Source: Minisyncoccota bacterium (GTDB lineage Bacteria > Patescibacteriota > Minisyncoccia > Phycocordibacterales > UBA1006). Taken from it: a stretch of 42,021 nt of DNA. The stretch covers positions 1 to 42,021 of the forward strand of contig JAJOIF010000003.1 in NCBI GenBank assembly GCA_021209525.1, given 5' to 3'. The notes under the pieces are model-generated. The model worked only from the letters and a program-made list of their open reading frames with translations. It did no database searches and had not been told where the DNA came from. Shown in pieces: positions 1-27,325 of the stretch. How positions within the stretch are numbered: the stretch's first letter is position 1; each line of letters begins with the position of its first letter. The position numbers were made by a program, and so were the translations under genes.

Positions 1-121
1 CTCGTTTCGCGCTAGCGCACTCACTACGAGCGCATTCGCTCGGCCCCGCCGTTCGCGCCGTACTCGCTTTGCTCCGTGCGGCATTGCTCACTTTTTTCGA
101 CCCCTGCTTCGGGATACAATC
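1..121 (-). repeat. tRNA-tail-derived repeat element behind tRNA-Lys (truncated by window edge)
   Basis: Read on the minus strand, after the tRNA-Lys terminator comes GATTGTATCCCGAAGCAGGG and then GTCGAA. This is a reverse-complement copy of the tRNA-Lys T-loop, T-stem, acceptor 3' strand and TACAATC flank, with GAA where the T-stem/acceptor junction should be. It runs into a body (GTGAGCAATGCCGCACGGAG...) that also starts the element behind tRNA-Arg at 23107. A later piece, CGGCGGGGCCGAGCGAA, is shared with the element behind tRNA-His. The far end lies outside the window. Confidence 0.7.
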
Positions 122-147
122 AAAAAACCCAAAGCTCTCGCTTTGAG
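122..147 (-). terminator. tRNA-Lys terminator hairpin
   Basis: On the minus strand CTCAAAGC-gaga-GCTTTGGG is followed by TTTTTT. It sits about 15 bases after the tRNA 3' end and forms the tip of a longer inverted repeat whose arms are the tRNA tail and its reverse-complement copy. Confidence 0.75.
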
Positions 148-162
148 TTTTAAGATTGTATG

Positions 163-235
163 TCCCTCCGGCAGGGATCGAACCTGCGACCATCAGCTTA
201 AAAGGCTGCTGCTCTACCGGCTGAGCTACAGAGGG
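163..235 (-). tRNA. tRNA-Lys (anticodon UUU)
   Basis: Complete cloverleaf on the minus strand. The acceptor stem is CCCTCTG/CGGAGGG, with TA at positions 8-9, a GCTCAG D-arm start, anticodon loop CTTTTAA with TTT as anticodon, and a T-arm with TTCGATC loop. The discriminator base is A. The 3' CCA is not encoded (CAT follows), so a CCA-adding enzyme is needed. Confidence 0.95.
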
Positions 236-22987: not shown

Positions 22988-23059
22988 CCTTCCGTAGTTC
23001 AATGGATAGAACAGGGGTCTTCTAAGCCCTTAATGTAGGTTCGATTCCTACCGGAAGGA
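22988..23059 (+). tRNA. tRNA-Arg (anticodon UCU)
   Basis: Acceptor CCTTCCG/CGGAAGG, anticodon loop CTTCTAA (TCT), T-loop TTCGATT, discriminator A followed by CT, so CCA is not encoded. A TATACT box lies about 12-18 bases upstream. Confidence 0.96.
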
Positions 23060-23071
23060 CTGATAATCTTA

Positions 23072-23106: not shown

Positions 23107-23160
23107 TGTCCTGAAGTAGGAATCGAAGAAAGTGAGCAATGCCGCACGGAGCAGAGCACT
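23107..23160 (+). repeat. tRNA-tail-derived repeat element behind tRNA-Arg (short)
   Basis: TGTCCTGAAGTAGGAATCGAA (23107-23127, one base short of exact) is the reverse complement of the tRNA-Arg T-loop, T-stem and acceptor end, with GAA replacing the junction. The body GTGAGCAATGCCGCACGGAGC then matches the element behind tRNA-Lys (positions 1-121, opposite strand). It stops at the end of the minus-strand gene at 23169 and lacks the distal half and the closing direct tail copy. Confidence 0.75.
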
Positions 23161-25414: not shown

Positions 25415-25912
25415 ATGAATACAACATTACCATTTGCACCAAAACAAGTACTCAATCGCAAAGACCTCGATCTTCGTGCTGGGGACACTGTCAAGGTGTA
25501 CACAAAAATTGAAGAAAAAGGAAAAACACGCCTTCAAATGTTTCAAGGGCTCGTTCTTGCAGTAAAACACGGACATGAGCCAGGCGCCACATTCACTGTA
25601 CGCAAAATTTCAAATGGCGTAGGTGTTGAACGTATTTTCCCATTGTACTCACCAAATATCGACAAGATTGAAATCGTTCGCCGATCAAAAGTTCGCCGAT
25701 CAAAACTTTACTTCTTGCGTGACAAAGTTGCTCGCGAAATTCGCCGCAAAATGCGTAACTTCATTGACTTTGCAATGTCTACCAATGAACTTGCTCAAGA
25801 ACAAGACGAAGTGCTTGCAGAAATGCCTGACATTATCGAAGAAGCAACTCCTGAAACAACAGCTCCAGAAGCAGAAACTGCAGCAGCAGAATCTACTCCA
25901 GAACAAGCATAA
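25415..25912 (+). CDS. rplS: 50S ribosomal protein L19 with acidic C-terminal tail
   Basis: 165 aa. The L19 core covers about residues 15-115: [73 protein letters not shown] and [10 protein letters not shown] tail of about 45 residues, rich in Glu, Ala, Thr and Pro, follows. Typical bacterial L19 is about 115 aa, so the tail is extra. L19 sits at the 30S-50S interface. The gene has an A/T-rich 74-base upstream gap without a Shine-Dalgarno sequence and ends at a strong terminator. Confidence 0.96.
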
Positions 25913-25917
25913 TATAC

Positions 25918-25942
25918 AAAACGCCCCATCTTGGGCGTTTTT
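25918..25942 (+). terminator. rplS terminator
   Basis: AAAACGCCC-n6-GGGCGTTTTT follows the stop by 5 bases. Confidence 0.9.
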
Positions 25943-25992
25943 GTGTTGCTAAAATATAAAAAATCCTTATACTAATACACACAGTTACATTT

Positions 25993-26076
25993 GCGCGAGT
26001 GCTGGAACTGGTAGACAGGCATGGTTGAGGGCCATGTGGGAGTTATCCCGTGGAGGTTCAAGTCCTCTCTCGCGCA
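25993..26076 (+). tRNA. tRNA-Leu (anticodon GAG)
   Basis: 84 bases. Acceptor GCGCGAG/CTCGCGC, anticodon loop TTGAGGG (GAG), long variable arm as expected for Leu, T-arm GGAGG-TTCAAGT-CCTCT, discriminator A. CA but no full CCA follows. The last bases are duplicated at 26273-26299. Confidence 0.95.
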
Positions 26077-26089
26077 CATAAAACATTAT

Positions 26090-26123
26090 CTCTCAAAGCG
26101 GATGCTTTGAGAGGTTTTGTTTT
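26090..26123 (+). terminator. tRNA-Leu terminator
   Basis: CTCTCAAAGC-ggat-GCTTTGAGAG followed by GTTTTGTTTT. Confidence 0.9.
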
Positions 26124-26124
26124 A

Positions 26125-26299
26125 GTGCGAGGGGAGTGACTTGAACCAAGGACCCGCGAAGCCCGCAGACTCTGAAGCGTATGCGCAAGAGTCGAGGAAG
26201 GGTCCGTGTGGAGGTCAAGGGAGTGAGATTATTTTGAGATCGATGAGCGAAAAAATAATCCACGAGAGTGACCAAGTCCTCTCTCGCGCACATAAAACA
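26125..26299 (+). repeat. tRNA-tail-bounded repeat element behind tRNA-Leu
   Basis: The left end, GTGCGAGGGGAGTGACTTGA then ACC (26125-26147), is an imperfect reverse complement of the tRNA-Leu tail. The right end at 26273-26299 is an exact 27-base direct copy of the tail plus its downstream ACATAAAACA (26059-26085). The body carries a GACTCT/AGAGTC hairpin and a 34-base module GATTATTTT..AAAAAATAATC (26227-26260) that recurs in the tRNA-His element. No open frame in it is convincing. Confidence 0.8.
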
Positions 26300-26321
26300 C
26301 AAGTCTCGCTCAGCGAGATGT

Positions 26322-26353
26322 ATCCTTAAAGCGACTAGCTTTAAGGATTTTTG
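26322..26353 (+). terminator. Second terminator behind the Leu element
   Basis: ATCCTTAAAGC-gacta-GCTTTAAGGAT followed by TTTT. It stands after the duplicated tRNA tail just as the first one stands after the tRNA itself. Confidence 0.8.
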
Positions 26354-26406
26354 TTGCCCAGTCTTTTCATTCCCCTTCCTTAATTTTTATGCTATACTAT
26401 ATCCAT

Positions 26407-26991
26407 ATGATAGACTTTCTTATTCAATCAAAAGCAGTCATTATTATTTTACACGCTCTCGCTGCAGGTATTGCTATTGGTGCAACAGTTGCAACCGACA
26501 CATTATTCTTTTCATTTCTCAAGGATTTTCATATTAGCAAAAAAGAACGCCAAGTTTTTGAAACACTTTCAAAAATTCTATGGTGGTCTCTCTTTGCGCT
26601 CATTGTGACAGGGGTACTCATTTTCTTTACTGACACAGCGCGTTATATGGCGAGTACTAAATTTCTTACTAAAATGATTTTGGTGGGTATTGTGACGCTT
26701 AATGGTCTCTTGCTCAACTGGTTCATTACGCCGCATATGAATGATCTCACTTTTGATACAGAGCGTGACAAAGAAAAAAACCTCACCTTTGTGCGCCGTA
26801 TTTCATTTGCATCGGGAGGCCTCTCTATTACTACATGGCTTGTGATTTTTATTCTCGGATCAGTGCCGCGTATTCCTCTTTCTGTAGGGCAGGCGATGCT
26901 TGCATATTTTGGCATTATTTTAATGGTTATTGCAGGTACGCAATTCTTTGATTATCGTGTACGCAAGGCACATCAAGAGATTGCTGAGTAG
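26407..26991 (+). CDS. Multi-pass membrane protein, unknown
   Basis: 194 aa from the ATG at 26407 (MIDFLIQSKAVIIILHALAA), 8 bases after TATACT (26393-26398). Five membrane helices are separated by short loops; a charged loop (FDTERDKEKNLTFVRR) lies after helix 3. A His near the end of helix 1 (ILHALAAG) and the general layout recall CopD/DUF2269-like heme or copper membrane proteins, but the match is weak. Monocistronic; the next gene is tRNA-His. Confidence 0.7.
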   Translation: MIDFLIQSKAVIIILHALAAGIAIGATVATDTLFFSFLKDFHISKKERQVFETLSKILWWSLFALIVTGVLIFFTDTARYMASTKFLTKMILVGIVTLNGLLLNWFITPHMNDLTFDTERDKEKNLTFVRRISFASGGLSITTWLVIFILGSVPRIPLSVGQAMLAYFGIILMVIAGTQFFDYRVRKAHQEIAE

Positions 26992-27052: not shown

Positions 27053-27125
27053 GGTGGCTATCGTATAACGGTTATTACTCCGGTTTGTGGTACCGGTTAT
27101 CTGGGTTCGATTCCCAGTAGTCACC
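27053..27125 (+). tRNA. tRNA-His (anticodon GUG)
   Basis: It starts with the extra G(-1), then GTGGCTA pairing with TAGTCAC (one G-T pair). Position 73 is C, as required for HisRS recognition. Anticodon loop TTGTGGT (GTG), T-arm CTGGG-TTCGATT-CCCAG. CCA is not fully encoded. Confidence 0.95.
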
Positions 27126-27135
27126 CAAAAACATT

Positions 27136-27171: not shown

Positions 27172-27325
27172 GAGGTGACGAAGGAATCGAAAAAAGGGAG
27201 GCGCGAAGCCTTTTTATTCGCATCTGCGAATAAAAAGAGCCGACCGGCGGGGCCGAGCGAATGAGATTATTTTGAGCTCATTGAGCGAAAAAATAATCCA
27301 TGAGGGCGGCCGATTCCCATTGCTA
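27172..27325 (+). repeat. tRNA-tail-bounded repeat element behind tRNA-His
   Basis: The left end, GAGGTGACGAAGGAATCGAA (27172-27191), is the reverse complement of the tRNA-His tail with GAA replacing the T-stem/acceptor junction, as in the Lys and Arg elements. The body has a perfect 12-bp hairpin (CTTTTTATTCGC/GCGAATAAAAAG, 27210-27237), CGGCGGGGCCGAGCGAA shared with the Lys element, and the GATTATTTT..AAAAAATAATC module (27265-27298) shared with the Leu element. The right end CGATTCCCA (27311-27319) is a short direct copy of the tail. 27326-27461 holds no gene. Confidence 0.75.

Follow-up and report, generated by a model that had tools for sequence, protein, structure and literature searches.

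The closest described systems are the tRNA-linked repeats (TLRs) of E. coli. PMC8144298, which uses this name, counts 22 of them at ten loci in K-12, dates their first description to 1978 and defines them by an 18-19 bp identity with the 3' end of the gene upstream. It also states that the function of TLRs in tRNA operons is not known and that an earlier claim about recovery from starvation has since been retracted. Its own work concerns 5S-linked TLRs, and it proposes that RNase E cuts the repeat. In other papers, Actinobacillus RtT members near Asn and Lys tRNAs are visible on Northern blots (PMC4986893), the copy number of the 175-bp rtT differs between Salmonella serovars (PMC2658671), and rtT is reported to resemble some BIME-type elements (PMC2965389). 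REP/BIME palindromes are likewise short repeated palindromic units. To our knowledge, they do not have tRNA-matched ends. The small RNAs RrA, RrB and RrF are E. coli TLRs behind 5S rRNA, and these bind Hfq and CsrA. Among open-licence papers, a search turned up TLRs only in Enterobacterales and Pasteurellaceae.

At E. coli tyrT/tyrV (Rfam family RtT), the parts are arranged as tRNA tail, about 59 nt (by eye), an inverted T-stem, hairpins and a 19-nt tail copy. The same order of parts was seen at E. coli tRNA-Pro (in K-12 and in strain CKJ_1000_3.1) with that tRNA's own tail, and tRNA-Lys has a short form of the RtT layout, again with its own tail. The K-12 proK element (L269, 2449-2582) scores 101 bits with the Rfam RtT model, and the K-12 record carries no annotation for it.

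A unit with this layout lies behind a tRNA-Leu(GAG) gene in the window, that is, the whole 42,021-nt stretch of DNA that was analysed. ARAGORN places the host gene at 25993-26077 on the forward strand. The gene ahead of it, which we take to encode a ribosomal protein L19-like product, has its best matches in named genomes among Patescibacteria (Ca. Yonathbacteria and Ca. Kaiserbacteria). The earlier note described an exact duplication of the tRNA tail, and 26059-26085 and 26273-26299 are indeed identical over 27 nt (100% identity, 214 nt from start to start). This is the sole direct repeat family in 25700-26700, the 27-nt sequence is present at these two window positions only, and about 3e-11 exact 27-mer pairs per 1 kb are expected by chance (arithmetic). 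The first copy begins at C56 of the T-loop and consists of the last 19 nt of tRNA-Leu and 8 nt beyond; Rfam places the tRNA end at 26076, which makes the repeat run 9 nt past. The element is thus positioned directly downstream of a tRNA gene and shares 19 nt, plus 8 nt, with the 3' end of that gene.

A terminator-like hairpin (26088-26115) separates tRNA-Leu from the element. Behind it, an inverted tail copy at 26120-26147 is 71% complementary to 26055-26082 over 28 nt, and a second terminator-like hairpin follows the outer tail copy at 26322-26348; both the inverted copy and the outer hairpin had been pointed out in the earlier note. The small element that it saw between the direct copies is also present, but its size is 187 nt as measured, not 175 bp. 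Within this region, 26135-26283 on the tRNA (forward) strand is a structured RNA unit that begins 57 nt 3' of tRNA-Leu. The inner part of the inverted copy provides the 5' strand of its closing helix, P1, and the first 7-8 nt of the second tail copy provide the 3' strand. The unit scores 114.9 bits with R1, a covariance model built from 12 elements, of which it is one.

Searching the genome that contains the window (679,573 bases in 15 contigs, with the window on contig C1) with this element returned more copies. Most are behind other tRNAs (Tyr, Gly-TCC, His and, as a partial copy, Gly-GCC), and one fragment has no tRNA. Complete copies follow 6 of the 29 tRNAs listed by Rfam's model (Gly-TCC, Leu-TAA, Ser-GGA, Tyr, His and Leu-GAG). 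In these six, the inverted arm starts at +55 to +60, and the tail is directly repeated at +174 to +195, over 9-19 nt from C56 onward. The inverted arm stands alone behind Arg-TCT and Gly-GCC, the Lys-TTT copy is cut off at a contig end, and 20 of the 29 tRNAs have neither arm nor tail copy; a 10-nt match behind Cys at +373 was left out of this count, being the tail of the neighbouring tRNA-Leu. Three further loci of this set are in the window. Behind tRNA-His(GTG) (27054-27126, forward), a second family element at 27181-27321 on the same strand scores 77.4 bits with R1 and has a 9-nt tail copy at +184. Behind tRNA-Arg(TCT) (22988-23060, forward, ARAGORN), a partial element is limited to a 12-nt inverted match at +55 (about 23116-23127), with no direct copy. 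Behind tRNA-Lys(TTT) (162-235, reverse strand), only the first part of an element is present before the contig ends (1-161), and R1 gives 10.3 bits (E 0.75) on 1-62. The repeats probably break assemblies, as window 1-161 and several elements of other genomes are at contig ends.

The unit is a conserved folded RNA with strong covariation. Compared with shuffled sequence, the fold of 26120-26300 has a z of -4.88 on the tRNA strand and -4.04 on the opposite one. In the consensus, a three-way junction is formed by P1 (tail and inverted tail), P2/P3, which includes a conserved GCGAAGCC stretch, and P4/P5, which has a GA-rich internal loop. A tandem GA motif is also ascribed to RtT RNA in PMC7657543. 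In the unfitted alignment, 90.0% of cells are paired, two-sided changes are seen in 26 of the 36 pairs, and covariation scores 0.488, compared to 0.221 when shuffled and at most 0.127 when slid. For 80 elements fitted to the model (A4), the score is 0.573 versus 0.191 shuffled. G-T mispairs at paired positions outnumber A-C mispairs (30:12 and 194:52), which indicates that the RNA is the tRNA strand, with much of this signal coming from two conserved G-U pairs (in alignment A3 the ratio is 16:12 when these two are left out).

To compare elements with their hosts, we examined 76 of them, comprising the 63 strongest further R1 matches and 13 others. A tRNA lies directly upstream on the same strand in 61, and in 51 of these the gap from tRNA to model start is 52-59 nt. 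The 61 hosts represent 16 amino-acid classes; Thr is additional and comes from outside the 61. ARAGORN called no tRNA for the remaining 15, eight of which were scanned with Rfam. That scan placed two behind a tRNA in tandem arrays, where L103 and L106 are second units, and one behind a tmRNA, where L107 is the second unit and the tmRNA's own tail is copied. At this last locus (G366:C3, 1-740), two elements stand in tandem behind the tmRNA gene, and the first element's tail copy matches the tmRNA 3' end. A matching tail is present at the contig start for L077, L084 and L086, L087, L097, L117 and L133 are at contig ends, and L104, L109 and L122 have an upstream unit or tail with the host gene outside the view. 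Upstream of L022, no recognisable tRNA was found, and L122 and L130 are ambiguous cases.

Both strands of the closing helix P1 are copies of the host tRNA's tail, one inverted and one direct. In 45 of the 61 elements, the direct copy begins within 1 nt of C56, 19 nt before the tRNA end. In 18 of the 61 its end coincides with that of the tRNA or lies 1 nt beyond, and in the others it is shorter or runs through the terminator. The mean score of the direct copy is 14.7 against its own tail and 6.3 against the tails of other isoacceptors. The host's own tail fits better than every other-isoacceptor tail in 40 of the 61 for the direct copy and in only 26 for the inverted arm; since the T-loop is near-universal, such single comparisons are weak and the argument lies in the means. 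The P1 3' strand matches its own tRNA at 7 of 7 positions in 47 of the 61 (mean 6.61, versus 4.83 for other isoacceptors). The P1 5' strand is exactly complementary to its own tRNA in 33 (mean 6.38, versus 4.85).

The distribution of the family is wide and patchy. With blastn, 30 of 148 relatives had any match, and many of these matches were the tRNA tail alone. Within the order, R1 matched 74 of 397 genomes at E<=0.001, where matches near the threshold may include chance or distant types, and 35 of these genomes at E<=1e-9. Among 379 genomes drawn from the phylum, there were three matches at E<=1e-6, and one of the three, outside the order, follows tRNA-Thr and has both an inverted arm and a tail copy. 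Different tRNAs are occupied within one genus.

Cores are often most alike within one genome, behind different tRNAs. For 30 of 53 elements, the nearest core is that of another element in their own genome, compared to a permuted mean of 1.9 and a maximum of 9, in a permutation that ignores relatedness among genomes. The near-identical pairs L085/L087 and L086/L097 are located at contig ends, and each pair may represent a single copy; leaving these four elements out gives 26 of 49 by subtraction, with the permutation figures still those of the full 53. In one genome, the Gln and Gly elements have cores 92% alike and both P1 strands changed. Same-genome pairs behind different tRNAs reach a core identity of 0.72 or more in 21 cases; among these, both P1 strands differed in 18, two pairs had a gap on one strand only, and P1 was identical in one (Leu/Trp). 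This likeness within genomes could be concerted evolution instead of spread.

Relatives include alleles without the insert, for which the earlier note had suggested looking. It had also considered the opposite outcome, with all relatives occupied and no empty site; instead, occupied and empty tRNA-Phe loci occur within a single genus. Of 19 tRNA-Phe loci compared in this genus, nine have an exact 9-nt tail copy, one has a degenerate copy (L152, by eye) and seven have none; the other two, at a contig end or with N, are outside the tally. L147, which has the copy, and L148, which does not, are followed by the same gene, whose products are 91% identical over 102 aa. By eye, L148 and L150 have an inverted acceptor copy behind the terminator without core or tail copy, so the palindrome can exist alone, before or after the core.

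We read the unit, with a probability of roughly 0.8, as a TLR, in which the 3' trailer of a tRNA gene contains a small structured RNA. TLRs as a kind are already known; the place, the core, the range and the evidence are new. Like the E. coli TLRs (including rtT/RttR; RF00391), the unit has tailored ends, being directly behind a tRNA (in E. coli also a 5S) gene whose 18-19-nt tail is repeated 3', with an inverted tail stretch in the closing helix and ordered hairpins inside the fold. Tandem copies, copy-number variation and a terminator or ~59-nt spacer between gene and repeat are also common to both. Unlike E. coli TLRs, the Patescibacteria core has another fold and sequence, belongs to another phylum, and occurs behind a wider range of tRNAs and a tmRNA. 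Rfam RF00391 has no match in the window at gathering score, whereas the E. coli controls match. The Rfam RtT model also has no match to L014, L019, L020 and L021 at E<=1, and R1 has none at E. coli tyrT (best 5.6 bits). Since the two models do not cross-match, the likeness to E. coli TLRs is one of layout, not of established descent.

We infer the function of the element from the E. coli TLRs. Read-through of the tRNA terminator would make the precursor of a small RNA whose fold would be closed by P1. As has been proposed for the E. coli TLRs, the second tail would serve as a 3' processing site resembling that of a tRNA, and tRNA-type processing there would release a small RNA of about 170 nt. 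By this analogy, the odds of the processing step are about even; many tail copies are shorter than 18 nt, down to 6-10 nt, so the full 19-nt processing signal is absent from many elements.

For the changed ends, we tentatively propose a copying step. The near-universal T-loop sequence may be where recombination or template switching carries a copy of the core from one tRNA locus to another. The inverted arm may be made anew by fold-back copying at the terminator palindrome, so that both ends would become those of the new host tRNA. On an equally speculative note, TLRs may be a broad class of self-tailoring selfish RNA/DNA elements, whose core moves between tRNA genes and rebuilds both closing-helix strands from the new host's tail by T-loop-started fold-back and template-switch copying, without a dedicated enzyme. 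If so, the E. coli repeats known since 1978 would form a single branch of this class. TLRs have been unexplained in E. coli for decades. The existence of a second family in the tiny genomes of Patescibacteria, in which the layout recurs around a core too different to be recognised, suggests that the arrangement as such is important. TLR origin and function become testable with comparative data of this kind, namely covariation, host-switched ends, and sites that are occupied in some relatives and empty in others.

Another explanation is that an enzyme with a specificity for tRNA tails moves a non-autonomous element in trans, with the fold of the element serving as its recognition form only. The spread of the core across tRNA loci inside genomes fits this idea, as do its patchy presence and the use of different tRNAs within a genus. 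We consider it unlikely, since P1 needs both strands rebuilt at every new site and no enzyme follows the element. We know of no transposase that rebuilds both P1 strands at each site. Y1 transposase matches occur in 18 of 28 carrier versus 12 of 28 non-carrier genomes and reverse transcriptase matches in 10 versus 16, a non-carrier being a genome with no R1 match at E<=0.001 (order) or E<=1e-6 (phylum), in which divergent copies could hide. The own genome, searched for reverse transcriptase and Y1 transposase, gave 0 and 0 matches. Its one tyrosine recombinase match (PF00589) is on another contig, C14. Among the 28 carriers, 25 have one tyrosine recombinase, two have two and one has none, and most carriers and non-carriers alike have one. 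An integrase, reverse transcriptase or Y1 transposase as driver was thus rejected, as none showed an association in this comparison.

Functionless, neutral tandem duplication of tail and terminator would explain other features. In all three E. coli strains chosen for lower proK coverage, a truncated unit is left in place of the complete one, as would result if direct repeats had recombined, and proK alleles with and without the complete unit fit this account. In the Patescibacteria family, the longest direct repeat is 64 nt, the copies at L015, L131, L120 and L134 (52, 61, 64 and 64 nt) extend through the terminator, and many tails are truncated. The earlier note had offered segmental duplication of tail plus terminator, which holds at some loci (Gly-TCC, 52 nt) but is not a general account of the unit. 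It leaves unexplained the core common to different tRNAs, the fixed gap and the covariation, and P1 persists in elements that have lost the remainder of the tail copy. We regard neutral duplication as improbable.

It is very unlikely that the inverted arm is a cis switch that controls tRNA maturation by pairing with the tRNA's tail or the second copy. Both tail copies are complementary to the arm, as such a switch would need, but the arm is behind the first terminator and would be absent from most transcripts, and it fits the tRNA worse than the direct copy does (exact in 33 versus 47 of 61).

The slimmest chance is left to the proposal of the earlier note, a remnant or non-autonomous integrative element with the tail repeats as attL/attR. 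tRNA-integrating elements have direct repeats from the T-loop to the tRNA end. Our locus resembles tRNA-integrating genomic islands in its direct repeat of the tRNA 3' end, which starts sharply at the T-loop and in the family often reaches the tRNA end, and occupied and empty alleles exist, but it differs in having no integrase in the 187 nt inside, a conserved fold with covariation, and an inverted tail copy at a fixed distance. The 16 tRNA classes with matched ends would require as many att specificities, the own genome and 25 of the 28 carriers have only a single tyrosine recombinase match, and none of the loci examined has the full-length version with an integrase between the repeats that had been envisaged.

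Other identities were also considered for the element. No Rfam family matches it at gathering score, so a riboswitch, ribozyme or other known RNA was rejected. A phage origin was rejected after blastn against 50,697 phage records gave no match, and an exact 25-nt core pattern had no match in the collection of genome contigs searched. The inverted strand is not a degenerate tRNA, as its T-arm is unpaired on inspection and ARAGORN calls no tRNA there.

Some loci differ from the TLR layout described above or add to it. Several of the tRNA-Phe loci of one genus (L138-L156) have other core types, in which ACTTAG/TTAGTAAC internal loops replace the GA-rich loop. Hairpins are inserted in the inverted acceptor arm at several of these loci, and R1 detects only some of them. 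At L016 (G000:C7, about 64501-64590), a core fragment is beside a stretch that resembles a decayed tRNA tail, where ARAGORN calls no tRNA. On the E. coli plasmid pE100181_149 (L273), a lys/val tRNA cluster carries a short RtT element between two tRNA-Lys genes.
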